From an uncultured Eubacteriales bacterium (lineage in GTDB: Bacteria; Bacillota; Clostridia; Lachnospirales; Lachnospiraceae), in contig ONKP01000036.1 of assembly GCA_900318405.1 (NCBI GenBank), positions 1 to 34,876 of the forward strand: a stretch of DNA of 34,876 nt, read 5' to 3'. This document shows positions 11,481 to 34,876 of the stretch, piece by piece. Each line of letters opens with the position of its first letter. The first letter of the stretch is position 1. Both the position numbers and the translations under genes were made by a program. The notes beneath the pieces are model-generated. The model worked only from the letters and a program-made list of their open reading frames with translations. It did not search any database and was not told the DNA's origin.

Positions 11481-11526
11481 TACAGATGCTTCAACCCGCA
11501 ACCATCCGCAGACGCCGGTGGTTAGA
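11481..11526 (+). repeat. Dispersed repeat family A, half-element in the ABC gene leader
   Basis: 46 bases starting TACAGATGCTTC and ending in the core CCGCAGACGCCGGTGGTTAG. It matches the reverse complement of 16176-16222 with only a few differences, and the end of the window (34833-34876). It lies 31 bases before the ABC ATPase start. No facing second arm is present, so this copy cannot form the long hairpin. Confidence 0.85.
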
Positions 11527-11556
11527 ACAACAATGCATCACGGAAGGAGATTTTCC

Positions 11557-12600
11557 ATGGATCAGAATGTTGTGATCAGGCGCGATTCAGATATCGCCGG
11601 GAACACACAGTCTTCAAAGCACATGTCAGACGTCAGCAGCGCGGCATCTCAGCCTTCATCCCGCCAGCCTGTCGTCAGGATCAGCGGTCTGGTCAAGCGC
11701 TACCACGAAAAAGTGGCCGTGGATCACTTCTCACTCGAGGTCGGAGAGGGAGAGATTCTCGGTCTCCTGGGCCCGAACGGTTCCGGCAAGACGACGACGC
11801 TCAACTGCCTCCTGGCACTGCTGAAATACGATAAGGGCGACATTGAGATTTTCGGAAAGCCCATGGATCCGTCAGCATACGACATCAAACGGGATATCGG
11901 CGTCGTCATGCAGAATGTGGCCGTGATCGATTCTCTCTCCGTGTACGAGAACATTGATTTTTTCTGCGGGCTCTACATCCGCGACAAAGCCCTGCGAAAA
12001 AAATATGTGGAACAGGCGATCGACTTCACCGGGCTCAGTGATTACCGGAAATACCGTCCGAAAAAACTCTCCGGCGGCCTGCTCCGGCGTCTGAACATCG
12101 CCTGCGGCATCGCGCATCATCCGAAGCTTATTATCTTCGACGAGCCGACGGTGGCTGTTGACCCGCAGAGCCGCAATGCCATCCTCGAGGGCATCCGGCG
12201 TCTCAACAAAGAGGGTGCCACCATCATTTACACCTCCCACTACATGGAAGAGGTCGAGGAGCTCTGCTCCCGGATCGTGATCATCGATAACGGCCGAGAG
12301 GTAGCAGAGGGGACCGCCGCCGAACTCAAGGCGAGTCTCCGGAACCGCGAGACCATCACGGTCGAGGTTCGTCAGATCTCGGAAGAAAATCTCCGCGGCA
12401 TACGCGAGATCAACCACGTCTACGATGTGGTGCAGAACGGCGGCACACTGGTCATCCGCTGTGACGGCGGAAGCCATAACCTCGTGCACATCATGAATTT
12501 CTTCATGGAAAAAAATATCGACTTCGGCAGGATCAGCACGCAGCTGCCGACGCTGAACGACGTCTTCCTCGAGATCACTGGAAAGGAATTGAGAGACTGA
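11557..12600 (+). CDS. ABC-2 type exporter, ATP-binding protein
   Basis: Energises export through the two following permeases. The 347-residue protein has a non-conserved Ser-rich N-terminal extension (about 1-38) and then a standard nucleotide-binding domain. Walker A is GPNGSGKT (72-79), the signature is LSGGL (171-175), Walker B is LIIFDEPT (191-198), the D-loop region is VDPQ and the switch His is H228 in TSHYMEEVEEL. A C-terminal domain of about 90 residues follows, as in the CcmA/DrrA/NatA-type group. I chose the ATG at 11557 because AAGGAG precedes it by 7 bases; an in-frame ATG at 11470 would begin upstream of the family A repeat and translate through it. It heads a run of five genes, ending in a two-component system that probably senses the exporter's substrate or the damage it causes (inference). 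Confidence 0.93.
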   Translation: MDQNVVIRRDSDIAGNTQSSKHMSDVSSAASQPSSRQPVVRISGLVKRYHEKVAVDHFSLEVGEGEILGLLGPNGSGKTTTLNCLLALLKYDKGDIEIFGKPMDPSAYDIKRDIGVVMQNVAVIDSLSVYENIDFFCGLYIRDKALRKKYVEQAIDFTGLSDYRKYRPKKLSGGLLRRLNIACGIAHHPKLIIFDEPTVAVDPQSRNAILEGIRRLNKEGATIIYTSHYMEEVEELCSRIVIIDNGREVAEGTAAELKASLRNRETITVEVRQISEENLRGIREINHVYDVVQNGGTLVIRCDGGSHNLVHIMNFFMEKNIDFGRISTQLPTLNDVFLEITGKELRD

Positions 12601-12637
12601 TGTTCAGGCATAGATTCAACGTAAAGGAGCTGAGTGA

Positions 12638-13948
12638 ATGACGTTCGGACATATTTTTCTCTACAGGATCAAAGAACTTTTCCGGCAGAAATGGTGCGTC
12701 GGATGGAACTTTCTCTTTCCTCTCGTCCTGGCCACAGCCTTTTTCGTCGGTTTCGGAAGCTTTATCAGGAACGCTGATATCCTGACGACCGTTGACGTGG
12801 CCGTTGTGGAAACACAGGACGATGAGATGAGCAGTTCCTTCGTCGATCTGGTGAAGAAGCTGGATTTCATGAACGTCAGCGTCGTCGACGATGAGGAAGC
12901 GCAGGAACTCCTGAAGGACGGAGACGTCGCCGGCATCCTCTACGCGCCGTCATTTACCGCAAACACAAGGCAGCTGCTTAACGGAAACACCCTGGACAAT
13001 GCGTCATCTGCTGCAGACACGCTGCAGATATCTGTAGAAAATATCGGGAGCTCGTCGATGCTGACGGAGGACGCGAAACAGGCATCCTACTGGATCAATG
13101 ATCCGACGCTCACCGTGGCGGAAAACGGCGTCAACCAGACGATCCTCTCGCAGTTTCTGAAATCCTACATCGCCAATGAGAAGGAGATGGCAATGATCAT
13201 CACCTCCGCAGATGATCCCTCTGCCATACCCGCAGCTATACAGAAAACCGCTGACATGATGGCAGAGGATATGACATTCGGCTCATCGGATGTCAGTCTG
13301 CGGTATACCGACGACGGGAGAGGTCAGCTCTCTCCATATATGCATTACTTTTTCGCCCTGATCGCCATGGCGAGTCTCTTCGCCTCCTGGATCAGCACGA
13401 GTATCCTCGATGAAGCCATGGCCAATCACTCGGAGATTGGCAAGCGGAACGAATGCGCACCGGTGCCCAGAGCTGTGTCCCTGACCGCGAACATTCTCTC
13501 CGGCCTCGTGATCCAGGTCATCAGCGTGACATGCCTGATCCTGTACATCCAGTACGTTCTGAAACTCAACTTCAACGCACCGCTCGGCTATGTCATCCTG
13601 ATCTCCGCCGTGTGCAGCGCGACCGGCATCGCCTTCGGCGTGATGTTCGGCGCCCTCCTCGGCAATCATCCGGCGACGACGACAGCTGTGCCATTGCTTT
13701 TTTCCATGGGGTGCTCTTTCCTCAGCGGCCTCATGGTCGGCAACATCCAGCAGATCATCCAGGCAGCCGCTCCGTGGATCAACCGCATCAACCCCGCTGC
13801 TCTGCTCACAGACGGCCTTGACTCCCTCGGCAGCTACGGCATCGGTCCCGCCTACTGGCAGGATGTCCTGATCCTGCTCGCTCTCACAGCCGCAGCCATT
13901 GCCGTGAGTTCCCTGATCCTGAGGAGGAAAAATTATGCCAGTCTTTAA
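12638..13948 (+). CDS. ABC-2 type exporter permease (first)
   Basis: 436-residue membrane subunit with ABC-2 architecture. There is one N-terminal span (about 23-43), a large extracytoplasmic domain (about 45-230) and then a block of five spans (about 236-258, 284-306, 318-338, 346-368, 405-425). The ATG follows AAGGAG. It starts 38 bases after the ATPase and overlaps the next permease by 14 bases, so translation is probably coupled. The substrate cannot be read from the sequence. By analogy with ABC-2/NarL-type cassettes in Firmicutes it may export an antimicrobial, lipid or peptide. Confidence 0.88.
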   Translation: MTFGHIFLYRIKELFRQKWCVGWNFLFPLVLATAFFVGFGSFIRNADILTTVDVAVVETQDDEMSSSFVDLVKKLDFMNVSVVDDEEAQELLKDGDVAGILYAPSFTANTRQLLNGNTLDNASSAADTLQISVENIGSSSMLTEDAKQASYWINDPTLTVAENGVNQTILSQFLKSYIANEKEMAMIITSADDPSAIPAAIQKTADMMAEDMTFGSSDVSLRYTDDGRGQLSPYMHYFFALIAMASLFASWISTSILDEAMANHSEIGKRNECAPVPRAVSLTANILSGLVIQVISVTCLILYIQYVLKLNFNAPLGYVILISAVCSATGIAFGVMFGALLGNHPATTTAVPLLFSMGCSFLSGLMVGNIQQIIQAAAPWINRINPAALLTDGLDSLGSYGIGPAYWQDVLILLALTAAAIAVSSLILRRKNYASL

Positions 13949-15110
13949 AGCATTTTTCAAAATCCTGAAAGTGAAAGGTGCCATCGTCCTCATCTACGTT
14001 GCGGCCTTCATCGCCTTTATGTTTGGCATCACGCTGCAGAGCGAAAGTGCCGGGGAATCGATGTTTCAGACAAAAAATCTGTATGTCGCCGTCTGGGACA
14101 AAAGCCGCAGCGCACTCTCCGACCGGATCATTCAGATGCTGCAGGGTGAAAACGAGGTGAGTGTTCTGACAGCTGATGACCTTCAGAAGCTTGGAACCAC
14201 TGAAAAGGAACAGCTGCGGGAGCTGAACGATGATGTGCGCTACGGCGTCTTTGATTACGTGCTGATCTTTCCGGAGACCTTTGAAGATGATGATCAGTAC
14301 AGTTATTTTTCCACCTCGGACAGTTCCGCCGGCTACATCATCAGCGAACAGATTGACACCTTTCTCAAATGCCTGAAGATCAATATGGCTGCAGGCATGG
14401 ACGGCGACGAGGCGCTGGAAAAAGCCGCCGAAGTCTCCGACGCATCGCAGAACGCAGAGATCCGGATGGCTGACTTCTCTGATGAAGGTGGTTCCACCCA
14501 CGACAGCCTGTATTACCTCTACCGGTTTATGTGCTATTCCGTGATGATGGCCATCGTCATCGGCATCTGCACGGTCATGACAGGTATGAAAAATGATGAC
14601 CTCGTCCGACGCATCCACTGCTCTGCCCTGTCCTCGCAGAAGATCAGCCTTGCCAGATTTTCGGCATCTCTCCTCTTTGCCGTCGGCGTTATGGGACTTT
14701 TTGTTCTCATCGCCTCCATCTACTGTCTCGGCAGCGCAGACATGAGCAAAAACAGCGCCTATATTCTGAACCTCGTTCCGGTTGTGATCATGTCTGCCGC
14801 ATTTGCGTATTTGCTGAGCACACTGACCGCCGACGAGAGTATAATAAACATGATCACCAACATGGTCAGCCTGGCGATGAGTTTTATGTGCGGTGTATTC
14901 ATTGAACAGAACATGATGCAGCCCGGCGTGCTGAAAGCCGCACAGTTCATGCCGTTCTACTGGTACGTGCAGGGCGTCGACCTGGCGGACGCATCGGTCT
15001 CCGTTACTTCGCCCGCGTTCCTGCAGTGCATCGGGATCCAGCTGCTCTTCGCAGCGGCATTTGCCGCAGCCGGCATCGTCATTTCCAGGAGCAGAGCCGC
15101 CGGGAAGTGA
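13935..15110 (+). CDS. ABC-2 type exporter permease (second)
   Basis: 391-residue partner of the preceding permease with the same layout: N-terminal span (about 14-32), extracytoplasmic domain to about 190, then about five spans (roughly 195-215, 240-262, 270-290, 300-320, 363-385). The ATG at 13935 lies inside the 3' end of the previous gene, preceded by GAGGA. Two different permeases with one ATPase suggest a heterodimeric membrane channel. It ends 24 bases before the sensor kinase. A long open frame opposite it is treated as a shadow. Confidence 0.88.
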   Translation: MPVFKAFFKILKVKGAIVLIYVAAFIAFMFGITLQSESAGESMFQTKNLYVAVWDKSRSALSDRIIQMLQGENEVSVLTADDLQKLGTTEKEQLRELNDDVRYGVFDYVLIFPETFEDDDQYSYFSTSDSSAGYIISEQIDTFLKCLKINMAAGMDGDEALEKAAEVSDASQNAEIRMADFSDEGGSTHDSLYYLYRFMCYSVMMAIVIGICTVMTGMKNDDLVRRIHCSALSSQKISLARFSASLLFAVGVMGLFVLIASIYCLGSADMSKNSAYILNLVPVVIMSAAFAYLLSTLTADESIINMITNMVSLAMSFMCGVFIEQNMMQPGVLKAAQFMPFYWYVQGVDLADASVSVTSPAFLQCIGIQLLFAAAFAAAGIVISRSRAAGK

Positions 15111-15134
15111 AAATTTACAGAAAGTATTTGAAAA

Positions 15135-16085
15135 ATGATTGAGAAGGCAGTCTCCCAGTCCGTCATTTATATAGCTCTGGAATGCATTCTGATGACAGAA
15201 GGCGTCACCGCAGGAAGCGTGGTGATGTCCCTCTGTCTTTTCGTCGTGATGACCGTTGCCATCATTCTGCCGGAGAAAAATCTCCCGGAAAAAATACTGC
15301 GATTCGTACCGGTTCCCGCCTGCTTCATCGCCGTCCAGTGGCTTACGGATCGCCTCGCCCGGAACCGCCGGATGCTCCACACCATGCAGGACAGCGACCG
15401 TGAACTCGAAATGGCGCTGCGCGAGCAGAACCGGAAACTCCTGGAAGAACAGGAATATGAGATCCGTCTGGCCACCATGTCCGAGCGAAACCGCATTGCG
15501 CGGGAGATTCATGACAACGTGGGTCATCTTCTCTCCCGGGCGCTCATCATGCTCGGTGCCATCCGAACCGTGAACAGGGACGATGCGCTCGCACCGCATC
15601 TCGATCAGCTCGATCAGACGCTGGACACGGCCATGCAGGAGATGCGCAGCAGCGTGCATGATCTGCATGATGACTCCATTGATTTTCAGAAAAATATCGA
15701 CGATATGGTAAAAGAGCTGAAGGCTTCCGGCCGCTGCCAGGTCGTCACCGATGTGGATGCGGACATCTCGCTCGAAAAGAACATCAAAATCACCCTGATT
15801 GCGATCGCCCGGGAGGCCGTCTCGAATTACCTGAGGCACAGCAACGGCGACCGCGTGGAGATCACCGTCCACGATCATCCCGGCTTCTGCACGCTGTCTG
15901 TCAGTGACAACGGCACGCTGACGCCGGAGACAGCAGCAAAAATCCGGCGGGGTCCCGGGCCGGGTGCGGGCAACGGGCTCGGAAATATCCGCGAACGGGC
16001 GGAGAGTCTCGGCGGAACGGCTGCTTTTTATACCGATCATGGGTTCAAAGTGTTTGTGAATCTGCCAAAAGCTGCATGCAATTAA
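15135..16085 (+). CDS. NarL-type sensor histidine kinase
   Basis: Membrane-linked sensor that autophosphorylates and passes phosphate to the response regulator downstream. In 316 residues it has a short hydrophobic N-terminus (about two spans within 8-70) and a coiled linker rich in Glu/Arg (80-118). The HisKA_3 dimerisation helix carries the phosphorylated His (H126 in IAREIHDNVGHLLS). The ATPase domain shows an N-box (REAVSNYLRHS), a G-box (VSDNGT) and GNGLGNIRERAESLGG. There is almost no extracellular loop, so it probably senses within the membrane or through the ABC permeases (inference). The ribosome binding site is weak; an in-frame TGA two codons before the ATG fixes the start. It is followed by a 183-base gap holding a palindromic repeat. 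Confidence 0.9.
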   Translation: MIEKAVSQSVIYIALECILMTEGVTAGSVVMSLCLFVVMTVAIILPEKNLPEKILRFVPVPACFIAVQWLTDRLARNRRMLHTMQDSDRELEMALREQNRKLLEEQEYEIRLATMSERNRIAREIHDNVGHLLSRALIMLGAIRTVNRDDALAPHLDQLDQTLDTAMQEMRSSVHDLHDDSIDFQKNIDDMVKELKASGRCQVVTDVDADISLEKNIKITLIAIAREAVSNYLRHSNGDRVEITVHDHPGFCTLSVSDNGTLTPETAAKIRRGPGPGAGNGLGNIRERAESLGGTAAFYTDHGFKVFVNLPKAACN

Positions 16086-16090
16086 ATAAG

Positions 16091-16224
16091 AATACAGATA
16101 CTTCCACCCGCAACACGCTCTCGCTCGTCCTCGACGCAGCGGTGGTAAGTTCGTCCTTCGCTTATGCTCGGACTCTCTAACCACCGGCGTCTGCGGATGG
16201 TTGCGGAGTGGAAGTATCTGTATT
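16091..16224. repeat. Dispersed repeat family A, full palindromic element between kinase and regulator
   Basis: Outer arms of 24-25 bases (16091-16114 and 16200-16224) are complementary except for one bulged base. Inside them a second pair (GGTGGT at 16141-16146 with ACCACC at 16180-16185) and a small third pair (GTCC with GGAC) continue the hairpin. The right half (16176-16222, read in reverse) is the same unit as at 11481-11526, so the element is two facing half-units, the left one altered by an internal insertion. It starts 5 bases after the kinase stop and ends 44 bases before the regulator start. No open reading frame or T-run is evident. Confidence 0.9.
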
Positions 16225-16268
16225 TCTCATTGTTGTACAGTTAGTTATACAGGAAGAGGTTGTAAGTA

Positions 16269-16991
16269 TTGGATATCCGAATTTTGATTATTGATGACGA
16301 TGAACTGGTGGCGATGTCATTGGAGATGATCCTGAATGCCGAGGATGGCATGACTGCTGTCGGGAAGGGGTACAGCGGCACTGATGCGATCCGCCTGTAT
16401 GATGAGTTTCTGCCGGATGTGCTGCTCATGGATATCCGCATGAAGGATATGACCGGGCTCGATGCCGCAGAGCAGATTCTGGCGGCGCATGCGGATGCGA
16501 GGATCCTCTTCCTCACAACTTTTTCTGATGACGAGTATATTGTGAAGGCTCTGCAGCTTGGCGTGAAGGGTTACCTGCTGAAGCAGGATTACCGGTCTGT
16601 CGCCTCATCGATCCGCGCCGTATACAACGGACAGAACGTATTCGGCGGAGCGGTCGTGGAAAAGCTGCCGGGGCTGATGCGGGCTGACAGACCAGTATCC
16701 AGCGAAAAAAACAGCATGTCCGCTTCAGATATGACAAACAGCCAGAGCGGCAACAGCGACGGCGACGGAACAAGTGATGAAAAAATCCAGAGAAACTATG
16801 TTTCGAAGGGCATCACCGACCGGGAATACCAGCTGATCCAGCTTGTGGCCAAGGGTCTCTCCAATAAAGAGATCGCCGACAGGGTTTTTCTCTCAGAGGG
16901 AACCGTCAAAAACTACCTGAGCAGCATTCTTGACAAGCTCGATCTGAGAGATCGCACGCAGCTGGCCGTATATTACTATGAAAACCGATAA
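16269..16991 (+). CDS. NarL/LuxR-type response regulator
   Basis: DNA-binding partner of the upstream kinase, likely controlling the exporter operon. The receiver domain spans about 1-120, with the acidic pocket at D10-D11, the phosphorylated D55 in LLMDIRMKD and the conserved K105. A LuxR helix-turn-helix lies at about 175-235 (ITDREYQLIQLVAKGLSNKEIA, then FLSEGTVKNYLSSI). The two are joined by an unusually long Ser/Asn/Asp-rich linker (about 132-176). The start is TTG at 16269, supported by AGGAAGAGG about 9 bases upstream. Its stop codon is immediately adjacent, with no spacer, to the stop of the convergent dehydrogenase gene. Confidence 0.92.
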   Translation: MDIRILIIDDDELVAMSLEMILNAEDGMTAVGKGYSGTDAIRLYDEFLPDVLLMDIRMKDMTGLDAAEQILAAHADARILFLTTFSDDEYIVKALQLGVKGYLLKQDYRSVASSIRAVYNGQNVFGGAVVEKLPGLMRADRPVSSEKNSMSASDMTNSQSGNSDGDGTSDEKIQRNYVSKGITDREYQLIQLVAKGLSNKEIADRVFLSEGTVKNYLSSILDKLDLRDRTQLAVYYYENR

Positions 16992-17963
16992 TCAGTACCC
17001 TCTCTTCCTGTCCACCTCGTGCACAAGCGGCCTGCCGTTCAGGAAATTTTCCAGGTCTTCGCAGAACATCTCCACGCTTTTTTCGCGGGTATAATTCAGC
17101 GTCATCTGGCCGGCGCAGTGAGGTGTCAGCAGTATATTTTTCGCGGTGCGGAGCGGGCTGTTGGCCGGCACGGGCTCCGTCTGCATGACATCCAGTGCCG
17201 CTCCGGCAAGTTTTCCTTCGTTCAGCGCATCGGTCAGAGCCGTCTCATCGATGGCACTTCCTCTTCCAACGTTGACCAGATAGGCTCTTTCGGGAAGAAG
17301 GGCGATCATATCTCTGTTCAGAATTCCGATCGTCTCCGGTGTCTCCGGAAGGCTCATGACCAGAAGATCCGTCTGCGGAAGCACTGACGCCAGTTCTGAG
17401 ACACGGCACACTTTATCATATTCCGGTGACATTCTGCCGCTCCGGTTCACGCCCACGACAGATGCCGGCTCGAATCCCCTCACGCGCTTCGCAAAGGTGC
17501 TTCCGATGTCTCCGGTCCCGAGAACGGTGATCCTGCTGCCGCACAGAGAATGCATGGGAATCTCGTGCCCCCATTTCTCTGCCGTCGTGTCATTCATTAT
17601 TTTTTCATAGGAAACAAACTGACGCATCATGATCAGCGACGTCATGATGATATGCTCAGAAATCGTGACACCATAGGCTCCTGCGGAATTTGACAGATGA
17701 CAGCTTTCGTTCGGAAGAACCCCCTCCGTCAGATAATGATTCACACCGGCCCAGTGGGTGCAGAACCATTTCAGATTTTTTGCTTTATGCAGGGGTTCCG
17801 GATTCGATCCAAACATGATATCCGCATCTGCAGCTTCTGCTTTCGCTTCCTCCAGATTGGTCACAAAACAGGTCGTGCAGCCATGTTTATCCGCGATCTC
17901 CCTGATTTTCTGCTTCTGTTCTTCCGTTATCTGCCAGTAAACAAGAATTTTATATCCCATCAT
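16992..17963 (-). CDS. D-isomer-specific 2-hydroxyacid dehydrogenase
   Basis: NAD(P)-dependent reduction of a 2-keto acid to a D-2-hydroxy acid, or the reverse. The 323-residue product is full length. The nucleotide-binding loop is GTGDIG (149-154). The catalytic triad is present: R234 in NVGRGSAID, E263 in QTEPVPANSPL and H282 in TPHCAG. The substrate-side segment HWAGVNHY and SAGAYGVTISEHIIM are typical of the phosphoglycerate-dehydrogenase-like superfamily, but the substrate cannot be assigned. Two tandem ATGs (17963 and 17960) follow GGAGG; the second has the more usual spacing. Divergent from exonuclease III and abutting the response regulator stop with zero gap. Confidence 0.88.
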   Translation of the reverse strand: MMGYKILVYWQITEEQKQKIREIADKHGCTTCFVTNLEEAKAEAADADIMFGSNPEPLHKAKNLKWFCTHWAGVNHYLTEGVLPNESCHLSNSAGAYGVTISEHIIMTSLIMMRQFVSYEKIMNDTTAEKWGHEIPMHSLCGSRITVLGTGDIGSTFAKRVRGFEPASVVGVNRSGRMSPEYDKVCRVSELASVLPQTDLLVMSLPETPETIGILNRDMIALLPERAYLVNVGRGSAIDETALTDALNEGKLAGAALDVMQTEPVPANSPLRTAKNILLTPHCAGQMTLNYTREKSVEMFCEDLENFLNGRPLVHEVDRKRGY

Positions 17964-18023
17964 GGATACCTCCGCATTTCCGCTTCTGATCTTTCACCGT
18001 GATTTTTCTCTGATACAGATCTG

Positions 18024-18052
18024 TTTTTTAATTTCACCGGCAATAGTATAAT
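18024..18052 (+). promoter_or_regulatory. Possible promoter of the exonuclease III gene
   Basis: A perfect -10 TATAAT (18047-18052) with a T-rich, non-consensus -35 (18024-18029) at 17 bases. The start would fall near 18059, about 38 bases before the ATG. Confidence 0.45.
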
Positions 18053-18096
18053 GCATATAACCGATTCTGCCAAACAGAGGAATGGAGACAAATACA

Positions 18097-18855: not shown

Positions 18856-18940
18856 CCTCCCACTGTTAACCCGCAGGCTTTCAGGTACTACGATCTGTAA
18901 AGCTGTTCTCTGAAAATTTGGGCATTTCCTGCATTCATAA

Positions 18941-18978
18941 AAATTACCCGGCGCGACTGGTTCGTGCCGGGTATTCTT
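18941..18978. terminator. Bidirectional terminator between exonuclease III and the AEC permease
   Basis: An 8-bp perfect stem (TACCCGGC at 18945-18952 with GCCGGGTA at 18966-18973). On the minus strand it is followed by ATTTTTA and on the plus strand by TTCTTAT, so it could end both converging genes and is better for the minus strand. Confidence 0.7.
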
Positions 18979-18998
18979 ATATGCCAAGCGATGGAAAC

Positions 18999-19085: not shown

Positions 19086-19095
19086 GTACGGCAAT

Positions 19096-20268: not shown

Positions 20269-20289
20269 GGGCAGGTATTAAAAATTCAA

Positions 20290-20374
20290 GAGACAGGGGA
20301 GCTTCACAGCTGAGAGGTGCGATTGCCGCACGACCCTAAAAAACCTGATTTGGATAATGCCAACGTAGGGAGCG
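20290..20374 (+). promoter_or_regulatory. TPP (thiamine pyrophosphate) riboswitch aptamer
   Basis: The conserved parts of the THI element appear in order: GGGGAGC, CTGAGA (20310-20315), ACCCTA (20333-20338), AACCTGATTTGGATAATGCC (20342-20361) and GTAGGG (20365-20370). An intrinsic terminator follows at 20429-20461 and the coding start is at 20542, so TPP binding would be expected to end transcription before thiM-thiE. The regulated pathway matches the downstream genes. Confidence 0.96.
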
Positions 20375-20428
20375 CTGCAATAGCACTGTGCCGTTTGCCG
20401 GCGACAGTCGCATGTAACCGTATACTGA

Positions 20429-20462: not shown

Positions 20463-20541
20463 ATCGATGAATTGCTTCTTCCCCGTCTCCTGAAAATATC
20501 GGACACACTGCATGTGCCGAAAAAATATACCGGGAGAATTC

Positions 20542-22152
20542 ATGTTATTTCACACACACCCTCTGGTTCACCTGATTACCAACCGGGTGACGATGAATAA
20601 AACAGTCAACGGCATCCTCGCAGCCGGCGGCCGCGCGATCTGCGCTGACGCACCGGCAGAGGCTGAGGATATTACCGGCCTTGCCGATGCGCTGGTGCTC
20701 AACACCGGCATGCCTTCAGAAGAACGCGTGCGCGCGATGCTCATCGCCGGAAAAAAAGCAAACGCGAAAGGTATCCCTGTTGTGCTGGACCCGGTCGGCG
20801 CGGGTGCATCCGGTCTGCGGAATCAGATTCTGACAACGCTTCTTTCAGAAATACGCTTTACGGCGATCCGCGGCAATGCTTCTGAAATTGCCGCCCTCTG
20901 CCGCGTCTCCTTCCGGTCAGGCGGCGTAGAGGATGTCGGTGCAAGGGCTTCCGTGGAAGCCATGCGGGAACTTTCCCGGCGAACCGGCGCCGTGATCATC
21001 GCGACCGGGGAAGAGGATATTGTCATCCGGGACGGAGATGCGCCTTGTCAGACGCTGACCGGCGGATCACCGCTCCAGAAGCAGGTGACCGGGAGCGGAT
21101 GCATGCTCTCCGGCATCCTTGGCGCAGCTCTCGCCGATGCCCGGCTGAAATCTGCCGCAGACGCCCGGACTGCATGCATCAGACATGACGCATCCATAAT
21201 GACTGCCAGTAACGAAAATACAGTTCTCTTTCCGGCAGCGGACAGGAAAAAAGATACCCTCCTGTCAGATCCGTCAGATAAAAAAGGTACTTTTCCATCT
21301 GACAGGGGCATAGCGAATGCATCTGATGCCGACATACCCGGATCTGCTGACAAATCCGACTTTGACACAGCGGTCCGCCTGCTGAAGCTCTACCGCCGGG
21401 CCGCTGCCGATGCCGAGGCCATGATGCGGCGGCAGGGTTTTTTTGGCACAATGAGCTATGAAACTTTTCTCACCGATGCACTGAGCCGCATAGGACGGCC
21501 GGCATGGAGCAGGCACTGTCTTTCTCTGTACGCCGTGACAGACCGCGCCTGGCTGAACGGACGGACGCTGGCCGATGTGACGGAGCAGGCCCTGACGGGC
21601 GGTGTCACGATGGTACAGCTCAGAGAAAAAATGATCGATCCGGATGATTTCGTCCGGGAGGCAAAAGAACTTGTGCCCCTCTGCCATCGTTTCGGCGTGC
21701 CGCTCATCATCAACGATCATCCGCAGTTTTGTCAGAAGGCCGGCGCGGACGGCGTACACCTGGGGCAGGACGACATGTCTGTCCGGGAAGCCCGGCGGAT
21801 TCTCGGTCCGGACGCCATCATCGGTGCCACGGCACACAATGTGGAAGAAGCCGTCCGTGCAGAATCGGACGGTGCCGATTACCTGGGAAGCGGTGCCGCC
21901 TTCGGATCCCTGACGAAAAGAAATGCCGTCCGTATCAACCCGGAAGAATACCGCAAAATCACGTCGTCCGTGCACATCCCGGTCGCGGCGATCGGCGGAA
22001 TTCATGAAGACAACATCCTGAAACTGAAAGGACTCGGCCTCTCGGGCGTTGCCGTCGTGTCCGGTATTTTTGCTGCTGAAGACATCGAAAAGGCGGCCGG
22101 GCGGCTGAAACACCTGTCCACGCTGATACAGGAACCCCCTTGCTGCGTATAA
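20542..22152 (+). CDS. thiM-thiE: Hydroxyethylthiazole kinase / thiamine-phosphate synthase fusion (ThiM-ThiE)
   Basis: Bifunctional thiamine enzyme of 536 residues. The N-terminal ThiM part (about 1-320) phosphorylates hydroxyethylthiazole; it shows VLDPVGAGASGLR, IRGNASEIAAL and VTGSGCMLSG (C187). The C-terminal ThiE part (about 325-530) joins HMP-PP to thiazole phosphate; it shows TMVQLREK, LIINDHPQFCQKAGADGVHLGQDDMS, IIGATAHN, GADYLGSGAAFGS and VAAIGGIHEDNI. The ThiM part is about 60 residues longer than usual because of a low-complexity Asp/Ser/Ala/Lys-rich insert (about 205-275, bases 21154-21366) between GSGCMLS and the C-terminal helices. The ATG at 20542 follows GGGAG; in-frame codons upstream are ignored. 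It is first in the riboswitch-controlled set. Confidence 0.95.
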   Translation: MLFHTHPLVHLITNRVTMNKTVNGILAAGGRAICADAPAEAEDITGLADALVLNTGMPSEERVRAMLIAGKKANAKGIPVVLDPVGAGASGLRNQILTTLLSEIRFTAIRGNASEIAALCRVSFRSGGVEDVGARASVEAMRELSRRTGAVIIATGEEDIVIRDGDAPCQTLTGGSPLQKQVTGSGCMLSGILGAALADARLKSAADARTACIRHDASIMTASNENTVLFPAADRKKDTLLSDPSDKKGTFPSDRGIANASDADIPGSADKSDFDTAVRLLKLYRRAAADAEAMMRRQGFFGTMSYETFLTDALSRIGRPAWSRHCLSLYAVTDRAWLNGRTLADVTEQALTGGVTMVQLREKMIDPDDFVREAKELVPLCHRFGVPLIINDHPQFCQKAGADGVHLGQDDMSVREARRILGPDAIIGATAHNVEEAVRAESDGADYLGSGAAFGSLTKRNAVRINPEEYRKITSSVHIPVAAIGGIHEDNILKLKGLGLSGVAVVSGIFAAEDIEKAAGRLKHLSTLIQEPPCCV

Positions 22153-27001: not shown

Positions 27002-27032
27002 ATATAAATCCTTCCCATGCGATGAAGTGGAT

Positions 27033-27094: not shown

Positions 27095-27199
27095 ACTCTC
27101 CGGTGTTTTCAGATACTGCCGTATTTGCTGTATTGCTGGCTATCACAACTTTTCCGCAAGACAGCATACGCAACACAGGACAGACACAGGCTCTGACAC

Positions 27200-28612: not shown

Positions 28613-28647
28613 GTTCTCCACCTCCGTATATCCGTCATTGGGATTCT

Positions 28648-29667
28648 TCATGAGAATTTGTAATCCCATGCGCTCTTGAAGTAACCCTTGAATTCATCCT
28701 GGAAGATCTGCTTCGTCTCATCGGTCTGGAATCTCTCCACGATCCGCTTCACAGCCTTTGTATCTTTGTTCTTATCCTTGACCGCGATCAGGCAGAAATA
28801 ACTGTCATCGTCATATTTGGACTCTTCGTAGATGGCCGTATCCGGATCGATGCCGGCATCCAGTGCATAGTTGCCGTTGACGACGGCCGCATCTACATCC
28901 GCCAGTGCCGAAGGTACATCCGATGCATTCATCTCCACGATGTCGATTTGCTTATTATATTTCGTGATATCGCTGACTTCAGGATTTGCGCCGGCATCAT
29001 CGGAAAGCTCGATCAGTCCCGCGTTTGCCAGCAGCTTCAGCGCACGACCGCCATTGGATGCATCATCCGGAATGGCAATCTGATCACCGTCCTGAATCTC
29101 ACTGACATCATCATATTTATTCGAATACAGATTCATCGCGATGATGAAGGTATCTCCCGCAGAGACGAGATCGTCCCAGCCCTGATCAGCCTTCGTCGCA
29201 TCAAGAAAAGCATGATGCTGATGCGAGGTGATAGTCAGCTCGTCATTTTCCAGTGCCTCATCCGGTGAAATGTAATCCGAGAACTGTACCAGCTCGATGT
29301 TGATGCCTTCCTTTGCCAGATCGTCTTTGATCGGGTTCCAGATATCTTCATAGATAGCAGCCGTAAGTCCTACTTTGACTGTCACCGGGTTCTCCACGCT
29401 GTAGCTGTCCAGCGTTCCCTCCGCCTCTGCGCCGTCAGACGAATCACTGCCGGCCGATTCATTTGCCGAAGGTGTTTCCAGAGAATCCGCTGAAACTGTG
29501 CTGACGGAATCCGCTGCTGATCCTGTGTCCGAAGATGACGCGGCGGACGACGATGCGGAAGATGCCGCAGAAGATGTTGCTGACTGCGCAGCGCCGCTGC
29601 TGCCGCAGCCTGCCAGTGTCAGTGCCGTAAGTGCCGCAAGTGCAAATGCTCCGATATTCTTTCTCAT
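28648..29667 (-). CDS. metQ: MetQ/NlpA-family substrate-binding lipoprotein
   Basis: Membrane-anchored receptor that delivers methionine or a related compound to MetI-MetN. The signal peptide ends in the lipobox LAGC with lipidated C21. A Ser/Ala/Asp-rich linker of about 65 residues (22-86) is longer than normal and probably disordered. The NlpA domain then starts at PVTVKVGLTAAIYEDIWNPIKDDLAKEGINIELVQFSDYISPDEAL and includes TITSHQHHAFLDATK, IAIPDDASNGGRALKLLANAGLI and VVNGNYALDAGI. The ATG at 29667 follows AAGGAG by about 8 bases. Third gene of metN-metI-metQ. Methionine itself is inferred from the family; relatives also bind Gly-Met dipeptide or cystine. Confidence 0.92.
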   Translation of the reverse strand: MRKNIGAFALAALTALTLAGCGSSGAAQSATSSAASSASSSAASSSDTGSAADSVSTVSADSLETPSANESAGSDSSDGAEAEGTLDSYSVENPVTVKVGLTAAIYEDIWNPIKDDLAKEGINIELVQFSDYISPDEALENDELTITSHQHHAFLDATKADQGWDDLVSAGDTFIIAMNLYSNKYDDVSEIQDGDQIAIPDDASNGGRALKLLANAGLIELSDDAGANPEVSDITKYNKQIDIVEMNASDVPSALADVDAAVVNGNYALDAGIDPDTAIYEESKYDDDSYFCLIAVKDKNKDTKAVKRIVERFQTDETKQIFQDEFKGYFKSAWDYKFS

Positions 29668-29712
29668 AATCTTTTCTCCTTCTTCCCCTGAATTTTGTCT
29701 GTCTCCTGCGCT

Positions 29713-30393
29713 CTAATGCGTATTCTTCTTCGCCACCAGGCTTCCCGCCAGCTGCACGCCGGTTACGATCACAACCATGGCAATAATGGAAGCAATGGTT
29801 ACATCCGTCTGTCCCCTGTCGTGACCGTACCGGATCGCGAAATCACCAAGACCTCCGGCGCCGACCGCTCCGGCCATGGCTACAAGGCCGAACAGGCTGA
29901 TGATCGTGATCGTCGTGCCCCTCGCAATGGGTGCGATGCTCTCACGGAGATAGACGCGAAAAACAATGCCCGGGCCGCTGCAGCCCATGGATTCGGCCGC
30001 CTCTATTTTCCCCTTTTCCACTGTGGCGAGTGCTGTCTCGACCTGCCGTGAATAGAACGGCGCACATCCGATAACCAGCGGAACGATCGCTCCCTTCAGT
30101 CCGATGGCCGTTCCCATGATCAGTCTCGACAGCGGCATCAGCCCCGCCAGCAGGATGATGAACGGAATCGAGCGGAGCAGGTTGACGATCTTGTCAAGCG
30201 TCTGATACACCGCTGCATTTTCAGCGATCCCGTCCCTCTTTGTCACGGTGAGCGTGATGCCGACGGCCAGTCCGATGACAAAAATAAACACGCCCGACCA
30301 CGCGGTCATGACCAGCGTATCAGCGATGGCTTTCCAGAAGTCATTGCTTTTTTCAACCACATTTGGCATCCACTGTGCGATAATCTGTCCCAC
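29713..30393 (-). CDS. metI: Methionine-type ABC transporter permease MetI
   Basis: 226-residue permease with about five spans. The ATPase-docking EAA loop is IEAAESMGCSGPGIVFRVYLRESIAP, and the conserved AGAVGAGGLGDFAIRYG follows. The start is GTG at 30393, chosen because GGAGGTG lies 8 bases upstream, inside metN. This makes a 41-base overlap with metN and suggests translational coupling. An in-frame ATG at 30369 would shorten the protein by eight residues. It ends 45 bases before metQ. Confidence 0.93.
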   Translation of the reverse strand: MGQIIAQWMPNVVEKSNDFWKAIADTLVMTAWSGVFIFVIGLAVGITLTVTKRDGIAENAAVYQTLDKIVNLLRSIPFIILLAGLMPLSRLIMGTAIGLKGAIVPLVIGCAPFYSRQVETALATVEKGKIEAAESMGCSGPGIVFRVYLRESIAPIARGTTITIISLFGLVAMAGAVGAGGLGDFAIRYGHDRGQTDVTIASIIAMVVIVTGVQLAGSLVAKKNTH

Positions 30394-31477
30394 TTTTCAG
30401 CACCTCCACTCTGATATGTCTTGACCGGATGTAACGGATGGCCTCTCTGACGGACTCCACAGGTCCCTCCAGTACAGCCACCAGACCTCCGATCGGCCTC
30501 GAGTCCACATAATCAGTATTTCCGCAGAAAATATTGACATCGATGCCAAACTTTCTGGATACCTCGGACACCATCGGGTAATCCGCACTGTGCGGCTCCG
30601 GATAGGTCAGCCGGACTATACACTGATGATCGCTGATATCGACCAGCGGATCGTTCTCCGCGATCAGCTCATCGATCCGCGTCAGATGCATTGTCGTGTT
30701 CACGAAGTCTTTGGTGATCTGGCTCTCCGGACTGCTGAAGATGGAGAACGCCGTTCCCTCCTCGACGATTTTTCCGTGCTCCATGACGGCTACCCTGTCG
30801 CAGATCTCACGGACCACGTCCATCTCGTGCGTGATCAGGACGATCGTGATGCCGAGCTCCCGGTTCAGTTTTTTGAGGATCTTCAGCACCGTTTTCGTCG
30901 CCTGCGGATCCAGGGCGCTTGTGGATTCATCGCTGAGCAGGATTTCCGGATCCGTGGCCAGCGCCCTCGCGATGGCTACCCGCTGTTTCTGTCCGCCGGA
31001 AAGTTCGGAGGGATAGACAGCTGCCTTATCCCGGAGCCCGACCAGATCCAGCAGCCTGTCAACTTTCTCCCGGATTTCTTCTTTTTTTAATCCGGTGTGC
31101 TGAAGGGGAAAGGCCACATTCTGGAATACGGTTCTTGATGCGAAAAGCTGGAACTGCTGGAAGATCATGCCGATCCTCCGACGCTGCTTCCTCAGTTCCT
31201 TTGGCTTCAGATCTGTGAGATCGACCCCATCCAGCCATACCCTGCCGGACGTCGGCTGCTCGAGAAGATTCATGATCCTGACCAGGGTGGACTTTCCTGC
31301 ACCGGAGAAACCGACGATACCGAGAATCTCACCTCTGTTCACTGTCAGGCTGATATTTTCGAGTGCTGTGAAATCGCTGTCCTTTGTCCGGAAGATTTTC
31401 GAGACGTTCTCGATCCGGATAGCTGCTGTGGTATTCTCACGCACATCGGCTGCTTTTTCTCTTACTGCTGTGCTCAT
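30353..31477 (-). CDS. metN: Methionine-type ABC transporter ATP-binding protein MetN
   Basis: Drives uptake through MetI. Numbered from the ATG at 31477 (374 residues). Walker A is GFSGAGKST (56-64), the Q-loop IFQQFQLF, the signature LSGGQ (159-163), Walker B ILLSDES (179-185) and the switch His lies in ITHEMDVV. The C-terminal NIL/ACT-like regulatory domain (about 265-365) is present, as expected for MetN proteins inhibited by internal substrate. AAGGG precedes this ATG; an in-frame ATG at 31513 lacks a ribosome binding site. It heads the operon metN-metI-metQ-glcD-like. No SAM riboswitch or T-box was recognised in the leader. Confidence 0.93.
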   Translation of the reverse strand: MSTAVREKAADVRENTTAAIRIENVSKIFRTKDSDFTALENISLTVNRGEILGIVGFSGAGKSTLVRIMNLLEQPTSGRVWLDGVDLTDLKPKELRKQRRRIGMIFQQFQLFASRTVFQNVAFPLQHTGLKKEEIREKVDRLLDLVGLRDKAAVYPSELSGGQKQRVAIARALATDPEILLSDESTSALDPQATKTVLKILKKLNRELGITIVLITHEMDVVREICDRVAVMEHGKIVEEGTAFSIFSSPESQITKDFVNTTMHLTRIDELIAENDPLVDISDHQCIVRLTYPEPHSADYPMVSEVSRKFGIDVNIFCGNTDYVDSRPIGGLVAVLEGPVESVREAIRYIRSRHIRVEVLKSGTDYRTVDAKCG

Positions 31478-31513
31478 CTCCGCATCACCCTTACCTTTAA
31501 TGATTAATTCCAT

Positions 31514-31897
31514 GTTTTCTTAGCTGTTTGCTATGGTATGCACTCTATCACAACGGGAAGGGTTTGTATAATCCAATAAATATATGCCTGGCTATAAATA
31601 GTTTTTATATGTATCAGACCACATTATGTACTATTCACTCTTTGCAGCCACTGTCACACATGGAGACTTCCAACCTCGCCAACCACCGACGCCTGCGGAG
31701 GTCTCGGTTTGGGAGTCTCCATGTGTTCCGTGGCCCTGGACCTGCATTTTAACCGCAATAAACAGACCACAGATATTGAGGTATCACAGCCGGAACATTT
31801 TCTGTATAATAAGAGAAAATGCGATTCAAGCAACCGCAATAACCGGCCTGACTGACGCCGGTTTTATACGGAAAACGGATAGGAAGGACAACAGCAG
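31514..31897. other. Divergent intergenic region between metN and the thioesterase
   Basis: 384 bases without a gene that I can support. It contains the family A variant palindrome (31656-31726) and a possible plus-strand -10 TATAAT (31805-31810) for the thioesterase, with no clear -35. A second TATAAT-like box lies near 31565-31571 on the plus strand without a target. No metN promoter stands out. Confidence 0.5.
31656..31726. repeat. Dispersed repeat family A, variant palindrome with different outer arms
   Basis: A 13-bp perfect outer stem (31656-31668 with 31714-31726) extends inward with near-complete pairing to about 21 bp. The outer arm sequence (ACACATGGAGACT) differs from the other copies, yet the inner AACCACCGACGCCTGCGG (31681-31698) is the family core in reverse with two substitutions. 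The stem is kept although its sequence has changed. Confidence 0.75.
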
Positions 31898-32368
31898 ATG
31901 AATTATCAGACTTTCCGCGATCTTGCGACAGATGAAGAATATGGTACACAGGAAGAGATGGAGCGGGTATTTCACAGCGTCACGGAGGGCACCGATGAGA
32001 CCTGCTGGTGCTTTAATGAATGCCTGGCGCCGAAGTTCATCTCCTGTTCATGGGAGAATCTGGAGCTTACGCTGCAGTATGATATCGCCACATGGATGCT
32101 GAATCCGGCCGGTATTGTACACGGCGGGATCATTTCGTCCGGATGCGATCTCGCCATGGGTATGCTGACCCGTTACCTGAAACGCAGAAATGACTGTGTC
32201 ACCGTTCAGATGCAGATGCAGTTCATGCGTCCTGTCACCGGCAAGGGGAATTTTCTGGTGAAGGCGAAATCCGACAAGGCCGGAAGGAATCTGTATTTCA
32301 TGAGTGCCCGCGTCTACCGTTCTTCTGATGCCGAACTGGCCGCGCTCGCCAGCGCAGAATTCATGTAA
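31898..32368 (+). CDS. PaaI-type hotdog-fold thioesterase
   Basis: Predicted acyl-CoA thioesterase. The 156-residue product has the hotdog signature NPAGIVHGGIISSGCDLAMGMLTRY (69-93), with the HGG turn (75-77) and the acidic D84 at the usual catalytic position. It is followed by TVQMQMQFMRPVTGKGNFLVKAKSDKAGRNLYFMSARVY, typical of the 4HBT fold. The first 50 residues are less conserved. The ATG at 31898 follows AGGAAGG by about 10 bases. Its substrate cannot be assigned. It is apparently transcribed alone; the next gene has its own promoter. Confidence 0.87.
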   Translation: MNYQTFRDLATDEEYGTQEEMERVFHSVTEGTDETCWCFNECLAPKFISCSWENLELTLQYDIATWMLNPAGIVHGGIISSGCDLAMGMLTRYLKRRNDCVTVQMQMQFMRPVTGKGNFLVKAKSDKAGRNLYFMSARVYRSSDAELAALASAEFM

Positions 32369-32412
32369 TGATCATACACACCTGATTGATCAGCTCCGAA
32401 CATATTTTCAAG

Positions 32413-32440
32413 GTTTACGCAAGATTAAGTATGCTATAAT
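32413..32440 (+). promoter_or_regulatory. Extended -10 promoter for the alanine symporter gene
   Basis: Extended -10 TGCTATAAT (hexamer 32435-32440) with GTTTAC (32413-32418) 16 bases upstream. The start would be near 32447, only 7 bases before a hairpin with a GAAA loop (32454-32469). Confidence 0.7.
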
Positions 32441-32453
32441 GTGAGTAAATTGT

Positions 32454-32469
32454 GTTTCGGAAACGAAAC
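32454..32469 (+). other. Hairpin with GAAA tetraloop at the 5' end of the symporter mRNA
   Basis: GTTTCG (32454-32459), a GAAA loop, and CGAAAC (32464-32469): a perfect 6-bp stem with a GNRA tetraloop. It sits just after the predicted transcription start and before the ribosome binding site. It could stabilise the 5' end of the message (inference). Confidence 0.5.
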
Positions 32470-32488
32470 GGGGGAAAGGTGACAGAGA

Positions 32489-33904
32489 ATGAACAGTATA
32501 CTGACCAATCTGACGGCGTTTTCCGTAAAGCTTGATACGGCCGTGTGGGGCATTCCCATGCTGATCCTGCTACTCGGTACGGGAATCTTCCTGAGCGCAA
32601 GGCTTGGCTTTCTGCAGTTCCGCAAATTTGGAACGATCATGAAAAACACGGTCGGAAAGCTTTTTAACGGAAAATCCGCCAATAAAAAGGGAACGCTTTC
32701 TCCGGTACAGGCGCTCACAACTGCACTTGCGGGAACAGTCGGCACCGGCAATATCGCCGGCGTGGCAGGAGCCATCGCCATCGGCGGTCCGGGTGCGATC
32801 TTCTGGATGTGGATTGCCGCCCTGTTTGGCATGTGCACCAAATACGCAGAAATCATCCTCTCCGTTCATTATCGGAAAAAGAACAACAAAGGAGATTTTG
32901 TCGGCGGGCCGATGTACTACATCGAGAACGGCCTCGGCAAAAAATGGAAATGGCTTTCCGTAATCTTCTGCATATTCGCCATGGTTGCGGCACTCGGCAC
33001 CGGCTGCATGACGCAGATCAATACCATCGCAACTTCTATCGGATCCGTATTCACGGCATACAATCCATCCATTGACGACGGCACGCTCCACATGATCTAT
33101 ATCATCATCGGCGTCATCGGAGCCATTCTCACGATCCTCGTTCTGTTCGGTGGTCTGCAGAGAATCGGCAGTGTCACGGAAAAGCTCGTACCTGTGATGG
33201 CACTGGTCTACATTCTAACCTCGCTGGTTGTTGTGATCACGCATGGCAGCAGGATCGGTACTGTCTTTGCACAGATCTTTGAATGTGCCTTTGAGCCATC
33301 GGCACTGGGCGGCGGTCTAACGGGCGTGGCGATTCAGCAGGCGATGCGTTCAGGATTCGGCAGAGGTATTTTTTCCAATGAAGCCGGCCTCGGCACGGCG
33401 CCGATTGCTCACGCGGCAGCCGATGTCGAGCATCCGGTAGAACAAGGAATATACGGCGTATTTGAGGTTTTTGCTGATACCATTGTCATCTGCACGCTGA
33501 CGGCTCTTGCCATTCTGACCTCCGGCTGTGCGGGACAGTTTTACGGAAAATCAGCGGCAGCGGATCTGACGATCATGGCCTTCTCCACGACCTTCGGCAA
33601 TAAGCTGGCCTCTCTCATCATTGCCGTGTGCATCACGATGTTTGCTTTTTCCACACTGCTGTCTTGGAGCCTGTACGGCGCACGCTGCATGGAATTTCTG
33701 GCCGGACCGCGTGGAATGGCCGTTTATGAAGCCATCTACATCGTCTTCGTTGTCATCGGTGCCGGCGTCAAACTGGATCTCGTGTGGAACTTGGCGGACA
33801 GTATGAATGCGCTGATGGCGATCCCGAACCTGATCGCCGTGCTGGCGCTGTCGCCTGTCGTTGTAAGACTCACACGGGATTATGCGCAGAAGAATAAGTT
33901 TTAA
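32489..33904 (+). CDS. Sodium:alanine/glycine symporter (AGCS family)
   Basis: Secondary transporter importing alanine, glycine or a related amino acid with sodium or protons. The 471-residue length is normal, with about ten to eleven spans. Signature regions are TALAGTVGTGNIAGVAGAIAIGGPGAIFWMWIAALFGMCTKYAE (about 78-121), GGPMYYIENGLGKKWKWL and SGFGRGIFSNEAGLGTAPIAHAAA (about 287-310), all typical of AlsT/AgcS/DagA proteins. The ATG at 32489 follows AAAGGTG by about 9 bases. It is monocistronic, between its own promoter and the terminator at 34006-34038. Confidence 0.95.
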   Translation: MNSILTNLTAFSVKLDTAVWGIPMLILLLGTGIFLSARLGFLQFRKFGTIMKNTVGKLFNGKSANKKGTLSPVQALTTALAGTVGTGNIAGVAGAIAIGGPGAIFWMWIAALFGMCTKYAEIILSVHYRKKNNKGDFVGGPMYYIENGLGKKWKWLSVIFCIFAMVAALGTGCMTQINTIATSIGSVFTAYNPSIDDGTLHMIYIIIGVIGAILTILVLFGGLQRIGSVTEKLVPVMALVYILTSLVVVITHGSRIGTVFAQIFECAFEPSALGGGLTGVAIQQAMRSGFGRGIFSNEAGLGTAPIAHAAADVEHPVEQGIYGVFEVFADTIVICTLTALAILTSGCAGQFYGKSAAADLTIMAFSTTFGNKLASLIIAVCITMFAFSTLLSWSLYGARCMEFLAGPRGMAVYEAIYIVFVVIGAGVKLDLVWNLADSMNALMAIPNLIAVLALSPVVVRLTRDYAQKNKF

Positions 33905-33910
33905 TCCTTC

Positions 33911-33998
33911 AAACACGCTTTGCGAGATTGATTTCGTTATCGCGACGTTCGCTACACTCGATCACTCCGTGATCGGATGTGTCACTCAGTTCGCGTAA
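33911..33998. repeat. Dispersed repeat family B, copy 2
   Basis: Aligns with 18999-19085. Here the internal hairpin is stronger: CGATCAC (33959-33965), a TCC loop and GTGATCG (33969-33975), a perfect 7-bp stem. It lies between the symporter stop and the terminator, so it would be transcribed in the symporter's 3' region. Confidence 0.6.
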
Positions 33999-34005
33999 GT
34001 TACGC

Positions 34006-34038
34006 AAAAAGCCCGCGGCTCAATGTCGCGGGCTTTTC
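34006..34038. terminator. Bidirectional intrinsic terminator
   Basis: An 8-bp perfect GC-rich stem, AGCCCGCG (34010-34017) with CGCGGGCT (34027-34034), is flanked by A-runs on the left and T-runs on the right. It can end both the plus-strand symporter and the minus-strand gene that stops at 34067. Confidence 0.9.
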
Positions 34039-34066
34039 TGTATCTATCATTCTTCAAATTTAAATT

Positions 34067-34714
34067 TCAGGCATTTCTGTCTTCGTCATCGTAATAATCA
34101 TCGTCATCGTAATCGCGAACCGTCTGCTTTTTGGTCAGATCCGGCAGCGTCACATCCGAATCAATCTTCTTCGCGAAGCGGTCATAATTGGTCATCGAAC
34201 TCGTGACCGTAAAACGCTTTCCGCCGTTCGGCCGGATCACAAGGCTCTGGCTCTCAGCCGCCGTCTGACCGCCGTTCTTTTTTACCGTGCGGATCTCGCT
34301 GAACGATGTCTTGAAGCGCTTGCCGAATGCCGGCTCAATCATGATCTCATCGCCGGTGACCATGACACGCTCCACCAGCACATGCCTTGCAATCATAAAA
34401 TACAGAATTCCGACAACGACAGATACGGCAATCTCGATAATCAGAACGACAATCTGCATTTTTTCGGAATTTTTCAATGCCAGATAACCGATCAGTCCAC
34501 AGACAGCCGCCGCGACAATGACCAGAAGAATTCCCTTCATAATCCCGGACCCACGGTTCTTGACCAGATAGTTATCCGGATTGTCATCCTTCGCCAGTCT
34601 CTTCTCCTCGGCTGTTACACCGGATGTCTGTGCTGATATCGTAATGATCAGACAGAATATTACGCAGAGGATCACACCGATCCACTGCAGCATAAATTCA
34701 AATATTGTCTGCAT
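34067..34714 (-). CDS. Small membrane protein of unknown function with an acidic tail
   Basis: I do not recognise the family. The 215-residue protein has three predicted spans (about 8-28, 59-80, 87-107). A soluble domain of about 90 residues follows (110-195), whose pattern of short strands (VMVTGDEIMIEPAFGKRFKTSFSEIRTVKKNG) resembles bacterial PH-like domains, a weak similarity only. It ends in an extremely acidic Asp/Tyr tail (DYDDDDYYDDEDRNA). The ATG at 34714 follows GGGAGG by about 7 bases. It has its own near-consensus promoter and shares a bidirectional terminator with the symporter gene. Confidence 0.75.
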   Translation of the reverse strand: MQTIFEFMLQWIGVILCVIFCLIITISAQTSGVTAEEKRLAKDDNPDNYLVKNRGSGIMKGILLVIVAAAVCGLIGYLALKNSEKMQIVVLIIEIAVSVVVGILYFMIARHVLVERVMVTGDEIMIEPAFGKRFKTSFSEIRTVKKNGGQTAAESQSLVIRPNGGKRFTVTSSMTNYDRFAKKIDSDVTLPDLTKKQTVRDYDDDDYYDDEDRNA

Positions 34715-34765
34715 GTAAAGCCTCCCGCACCGAAACCTTATGTTTCTGTAAACCCAGATACTCAG

Positions 34766-34794
34766 ATTCTAGCATCAGCACGATATGATGTCAA
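34766..34794 (-). promoter_or_regulatory. SigA-type promoter for the small membrane protein
   Basis: On the minus strand a perfect -35 TTGACA (34794-34789), a 17-base spacer and an extended -10 TGCTAGAAT (hexamer 34771-34766). The start would be about 45 bases before the ATG at 34714. Confidence 0.8.
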
Positions 34795-34832
34795 ACTGCA
34801 CCAGTTTCATCGTTACTTCCACAACTCAGAGA

Positions 34833-34876
34833 TACAGATGCTTCCAACCCGCAAGACCGCAGACGCCGGTGGTTAG
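34833..34876 (+). repeat. Dispersed repeat family A, copy running off the window end
   Basis: TACAGATGCTTCCAACCCGC followed by the 20-base core, which ends exactly at the last base of the window. It matches 11481-11526 apart from a small indel. Whether a facing arm follows, making the full palindrome, cannot be seen. Confidence 0.85.

Follow-up and report, generated by a model that had tools for sequence, protein, structure and literature searches.

A probable non-autonomous palindromic element with a conserved, RNA-type folded centre in many genera of Lachnospiraceae

We analysed a 34,876-nucleotide stretch of DNA (the window; contig ONKP01000036.1 of assembly GCA_900318405.1, from an uncultured Eubacteriales bacterium of the Lachnospiraceae), in which a preliminary description had noted a dispersed palindromic repeat with a 20-base core. 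The repeat probably belongs to a non-autonomous palindromic element, similar to a miniature inverted-repeat transposable element (MITE), which occurs across many genera of a single family, taken to be the Lachnospiraceae, and has a conserved centre that folds in the manner of an RNA. We use the term MITE-like, rather than MITE, because no autonomous partner with the same ends came to light in two incomplete assemblies; it was perhaps lost or is unassembled. The core carries strong covariation and an RNA-like fold, and in at least one subclass the element inserts like a small transposon.

The core repeat, the folded unit and its spread

The core, CCGCAGACGCCGGTGGTTAG, is identical in three places in the window, at 11506–11525 and 34857–34876 on the plus strand and at 16177–16196 on the minus strand, and no core match was obtained in 100 dinucleotide-preserving shuffles. 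The preliminary description had reported this perfect conservation correctly, placing the first copy one base off. Its diverged fourth copy, given as 31681–31698, also stands, with two mismatches over the 18 bases that it named and three over the full 20 bases (31679–31698, minus strand), as does the block that it saw before the core, since TACAGATRCTTC...CCGCAA is common to all three identical copies. The window is the entire contig C77, so the last copy of the element is truncated by the contig end.

Alignment of the copies places the core as the 5′ half of a folded unit of ~136 nt, comprised of a long palindromic outer stem, a three-way junction, a bulged inner stem and a small hairpin whose loop is of the GNRA type. 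The order along the unit is outer arm, CCGCAAC, core, apical hairpin, ACCACCGCTGCGTCGAGG, a small GC-GNRA-GC hairpin, GTTGCGG and outer arm. RNAalifold assigned 45 pairs to 15 full units, 25 of them with changes on both sides. The full unit measures ~120–155 nt in the model, or ~200 nt including the outer ends of the copies that we term class 2. Across 39 core loci of the own genome (G000) and its congener G005, a crude test found a paired 3′ arm within 500 nt in 28 (27 clear, L027 doubtful) and none in 11, three of which are cut by or lie near a contig end. Some copies hold additional hairpin modules nested in the apical loop, to a total length of up to 426 nt. We observed such modules (for example GCGAGCAGTGAGCCACAT... 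and TGACGTGATAAAA...) in the apical loops of L002, L003, L004, L013, L026 and L081, at unrelated sites, giving the appearance of one hairpin placed inside another. The unit of G003 forms part of a longer repeat, with ~60–70 extra left-hand bases common to seven of nine copies (L090, L097, L150, L151, L152, L153 and L170).

The own genome (2.18 Mb, 91 contigs) contains 37 core places at up to three mismatches against none for a reversed-pattern control, confirming the earlier expectation of many more copies genome-wide. Four of the 30 places tested for it lie within 200 nt of a contig end, where 0.5 would be expected. At up to two mismatches the core was present, among 61 genomes, only in the own genome and G005, and a degenerate core matched RUG484, judged to be the assembly G005, on seven contigs in a collection of named species, with five other organisms giving one match each, which we take as chance.

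Covariance models reached further. Model R1, built from 15 full units, was positive in 10 of 16 genomes of the genus and gave no match in the other six. Scoring up to 150 candidates per genome, and so as lower bounds, the matches number at least 26 in G000, 27 in G005, 52 in G015, 31 in G010, 19 in G007, 10 in G003, 5 in G008, 4 in G006, 3 in G013 and 1 in G001. Model R2, built from 100 units from 99 loci, was positive at E ≤ 1e-6 in 84 of 200 genomes of the family (up to 16 candidates scored in each), and the two-contig genome G217 gave 43 matches; these E-values are rough, owing to a short calibration of the models. A class-wide draw yielded matches in 7 of 291 genomes, all in the same family. 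Long paired arms do add bits to a long-stem model, and together with the rough E-values this could mean that ordinary strong hairpins or terminators were scored as homologues by a permissive model. We consider this the least probable of the explanations weighed here, hardly to be credited, given that genera far apart from one another have the core CGCCGGTACTTAG...TTAGTACCGCTGCG...AGCGNRAGCG in only slightly altered form and that the class search found no match outside the family.

The preliminary description left room for a known Rfam family, and here none was found. Searched at gathering score with 4227 Rfam models, the whole window returned nothing except a thiamine pyrophosphate (TPP) riboswitch, and ten loci searched at E ≤ 5 produced five matches, each weak, well short of its gathering score and not credible, of which only one overlaps an element, in part (L092 1763–1863). 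A possible resemblance to part of 5S rRNA was dropped, as the Rfam search of these loci returned nothing of that kind. Viral contigs scanned twice with exact patterns gave no matches, a search that diverged copies would escape. No description of the motif was recognised in the openly accessible literature searched, and no paper matched the motif letters. The family of elements is real, large and widespread, spans many genera of a single bacterial family and is apparently undescribed.

Covariation in the core and pairing in the arms

In alignment A3 (100 rows) 92.7% of cells are paired, falling to 33–44% in slid structures, and 1160 cells carry changes on both sides of a pair against 302 in shuffles. 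Pairs with any such change number 43 of 45 against 34.8, a weaker indicator as the shuffles come near it. An independent set, A4, holds 67 loci from other genera and from G217, none used for R2, and 71 of its 75 rows are distinct. Here 1115 cells changed on both sides against 354 in shuffles, and 40 of 45 pairs against 35.7, with one of 500 shuffles reaching 40.

The loop of the side hairpin conforms to GNRA in 97 of 100 A3 rows (the exceptions being L040, L159 and L171) and in 68 of 71 A4 rows (L226, L240 and L279), the third base being A in some rows and G in others. On the core strand, G-T mismatches outnumber A-C mismatches by 37:2 in P3, 57:1 in P4, 23:12 in P2 and 10:4 in P2a, while the counts in P1 are 46:26 outside and 36:37 inside. 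The A4 set gave 50:2 in P4, 68:24 in P1 and 56:34 in the remaining core, where a single column pair supplies 14 of the 34. A large part of the P4 count comes from one G-T pair that was inherited. Taken together, these measures give the core strong covariation and an RNA-like fold.

The arms behave differently from the core. Among the class A copies of G217 (15 picked, 14 scored, L219 being skipped) the 18-nt arms are 45% alike between copies, compared with 35% for shuffled arms and 80% for the cores, while within a copy a crude local alignment pairs, on average, 72% of these 18 bases (44–94%). Genomes G006 and G008 have copies in common at apparently orthologous sites, and one such pair, L100 and L101, differs by one matched change in both arms. 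We had considered that the arms are kept paired at the DNA level only, and dropped this since P1 shows a G-T excess in the independent set. The pairing may be maintained by selection or by template switching (PMC8794818).

Insertion, gene context and the search for a driver

We compared the ends of class 2 copies in the own genome and G005, which have the termini GTTACAGTTCA...TGAACAGTAAC. Perfect 8-bp direct repeats flank 8 of 72 candidate end pairs, of which several were taken per locus and many are spurious; scores of 7 or more were reached by 11 pairs, and of 5 or more by 16. The corresponding fractions in 5112 mispaired controls are 0.4%, 0.5% and 0.8%. Two of the eight perfect duplications represent one insertion, L191 in G000 and L200 in G005, which share the duplication CCTTTTAC and 562 of 580 bases, and from which different internal deletions have left 83 and 62 nt. 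This suggests that full units insert and later lose their centre.

Element-free sites were observed by eye for two copies of the window. The copy at 11474 is absent upstream of the orthologous ABC gene in G005, G009 and G012, and the copy at 16090 is absent between the same kinase and regulator genes in G009 and G012; the kinase gene of G005 is interrupted, so the 16090 site is not comparable there. At that G005 locus (L315, contig C113) the kinase orthologous to window positions 15135–16085 continues, by eye, into a reading frame that resembles a transposase.

A DDE transposase, working in trans, is the enzyme suggested by the 8-bp duplication. No insertion sequence with matching termini was found, a negative reached without reference to an insertion-sequence library. 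The own genome has two Y1 genes of the IS200/IS605 type, one (L031) beside a TnpB-like gene and the other cut by a contig end. Derivation of the element from IS200/IS605 was rejected, as neither Y1 locus holds the arms, the core or the 3′ motif, the closest match having 4 mismatches in 15 bases.

The preliminary description had also raised a repetitive extragenic palindromic (REP) family, spread by a REP-associated tyrosine transposase (RAYT). The elements are indeed short, intergenic, palindromic and multi-copy, as would be expected of REP sequences or of their paired form, the REPIN. REPINs, however, have conserved ends, the opposite of a conserved centre with free ends. The RAYT model NF047646 reached at least 55 bits in 34 of the 200 family genomes, of which 12 carry the element, compared with 84 of 200 overall (hand-counted, assuming that both draws are the same 200 genomes); 72 of the 84 element-positive genomes have no RAYT match at this score, and the best match in the own genome is 19.7 bits. 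The consensus also has, by eye, no GTAG or CGTC tag beside a stem of 5–13 bp, the feature by which a REP is defined (PMC3733652). On the co-occurrence counts we rejected a RAYT as the driver, and we regard a REP or REPIN origin as very unlikely. Among the natures proposed earlier, a MITE-like one gains support from the 8-bp duplications of one subclass and the empty sites, and a structured RNA from the covariation and GNRA loop, while a RAYT- or IS200-type driver is not supported.

Another possibility is an element of single-stranded DNA, whose one-strand core hairpin is recognised by an HUH enzyme or a tyrosine recombinase, as for IS200/REP or attC. The fold is strand-specific and the orientation to genes is mixed, as such an element would have it; DNA also tolerates G-T over A-C, and short G..A loops are stable in DNA too. 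We think this improbable, since the class 2 duplications are fixed at 8 bp, which is not expected of Y1/HUH enzymes, the GNRA restriction fits RNA better and no matching enzyme was seen.

We then considered the positions of the copies relative to genes. Using a crude caller of open reading frames (ORFs), 94 of 158 copies were scored, 51 being dropped for ORF overlap and 13 for lying too near a locus end. The context was convergent for 35, antisense to both genes for 30, sense to both for 18 and divergent for 11 (29, 28, 18 and 15 in a cruder earlier scoring of 90 copies). The 25 scored copies of G217 divide into 9 convergent, 8 sense, 8 antisense and no divergent ones, and by eye the positions of the G217 matches follow no clean two-block pattern of replication-strand bias. 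Also by eye, arms extend into terminator-like stems (of type GGGGCTGYCGCA or GGGGCTGT) that have runs of A and T. This applies to most copies of G015 and most of the nine class B copies of G217, and to some copies in G010, G006 and G008. The sense gene lies on the left in all nine terminator-type copies of G217.

These terminator-like stems and the nine consistent G217 copies, along with the copies shared by G006 and G008 and the matched arm change of L100/L101, would suit a vertically inherited regulatory or terminator-tip RNA that is multi-copy as the end of many transcripts and is not now mobile. Element-free sites in congeners, the 8-bp duplications of class 2 and the mixed orientation of the other copies argue against it, and we judge it unlikely, if a little less so than the single-stranded-DNA element.

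We propose, as the reading we favour, that full units of a MITE-like element would be moved in trans, via their ends, by a DDE-type transposase encoded elsewhere, and would then decay by loss of the hairpin centre into half-units and minis. The arms would drift yet stay paired, which selection acting on the transcript could bring about, as could template switching or the two combined. The core fold, with its three-way junction, bulged stem and GNRA hairpin, may be kept because it acts as a functional folded RNA when the site is transcribed, possibly as a 3′-end or terminator-tip structure; alternatively, its conservation could reflect a requirement of the mobilisation machinery. A bolder version, which we put forward only tentatively, is that of a family-wide mobile noncoding RNA, in which the three-way-junction RNA itself aids the spread of the element or controls host transcripts. 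The element would then be a transposon of ~140 nt defined by its fold, with ends free to become any palindrome.

Several observations weigh against the MITE-like element with an RNA-type centre. Target duplications were found in class 2 of two species only, and by eye none were seen in class 1, in G015, G010 and some others, or in G217; nor was a sharp common end seen by eye in classes other than class 2. No transposase with matching ends was found. The incomplete assemblies G000 and G005 yielded 63 matches to class 2 ends (reversed control 4), among which there is no inverted pair with a spacing of 1–3 kb. On the RNA side, alignments A2 to A4 were made by fitting to the model and favour it, and their rows are related, so that cells are not independent. 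When the arms of 158 copies were freely aligned, G-T and A-C mismatches numbered 148 and 129 (p 0.28), with no RNA-strand bias, unlike the A4 model pairs of P1. Finally, the 16 scored G217 copies outside the terminator class divide evenly in their orientation to the left gene, with 8 in sense and 8 in antisense, which is a poor fit to a purely read-through RNA role.

The copies of the window are listed in Table 1. The half-unit at 11474 lies upstream of an ORF that reads, by eye, as an ABC-transporter ATPase, and its 3′ half was sought in the downstream 1500 nt and not found. The complete unit lies between two ORFs, again named by eye, one a histidine kinase and the other a response regulator, with its conserved strand antisense to both, and the GC stem and T run that would mark a terminator are absent. 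Folded as RNA, its core strand gives −74.4 kcal/mol (z −10.1) and the other strand −76.1 kcal/mol (z −9.1); both strands fold similarly, so fold energy alone cannot distinguish them. The class 2 copy has lost both the apical and the side hairpin as well as the 3′ strand of the inner stem, and its ends are degraded but similar to GTTAC...GTAAC. Elsewhere in the window, the TPP riboswitch (20285–20389, Rfam RF00059, 54.7 bits) lies upstream of ORF 20512–22152, which by eye resembles a thiM/thiE fusion, and three 36-bp tandem repeats occupy 3596–3703, near the start of the long ORF 3549–6242.

Table 1. Copies of the element and their parts in the window.
Feature	Positions	Strand	Description
Class 1 copy, 5′ half only	11474..11525	+	Outer arm CCAGATATACAGATGCTTC, CCGCAAC and 20-base core; without 3′ half
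Complete class 1 unit, 136 nt	16090..16225	−	137.7 bits with model R1; 123.7 bits with R2
20-base core of the complete unit	16177..16196	−	5′ strand of bulged inner stem
Class 2 copy, internally deleted	31628..31753	−	ACACATGGAGACT arms; ends placed by eye
Class 1 copy, 5′ half	34827..34876	+	Cut by contig end

Meaning and comparison with known systems

If the MITE-like reading is correct, genomes in many genera of one large family (84 of 200 genera drawn) harbour an unannotated folded element in their intergenic regions, often in multiple copies, and some copies form the tips of transcription terminators. The usual rule for MITEs would be inverted, with a conserved centre and free ends. The differing evolution of core and arms across genomes would also offer a natural system for testing whether long palindromes keep their pairing via RNA selection or via template switching (PMC8794818).

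Comparison with known repeats indicates both shared features and differences. Bacterial MITEs such as CIR/NEMIS, RUP and ERIC are likewise short, intergenic and non-coding, with terminal inverted repeats, a target duplication and many copies. Ordinary MITEs conserve their ends, whereas here the ends vary between classes and species and the folded centre is conserved. The bcr1 repeats of the Bacillus cereus group resemble the element in being ~150 bp long, dispersed, predicted to form folded RNA and regarded as mobile; they belong to a different host group.

The REP sequences, bacterial interspersed mosaic elements (BIMEs) and REPINs, with their RAYT, are also intergenic palindromes, often downstream of genes and with a possible RNA role (PMC3733652); the present element differs in having no GTAG/CGTC tag at the stem foot, a larger three-way fold and no RAYT association. 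MRSC-65-2, a "mobile/repeat sequence candidate", shares strong covariation, dozens of copies per genome and the suspicion of being a selfish element. According to PMC11109978, it consists of one long stem bearing a UYCCGG repeat and occurs in diverse phyla, whereas the element described here forms a three-way junction and was found in one family only. Palindromic candidate RNAs of human microbiomes are similarly folded loci, most of them with predicted terminators, and palindromic examples given in PMC8040213 come from Bacteroidetes, unlike the host family of this element.

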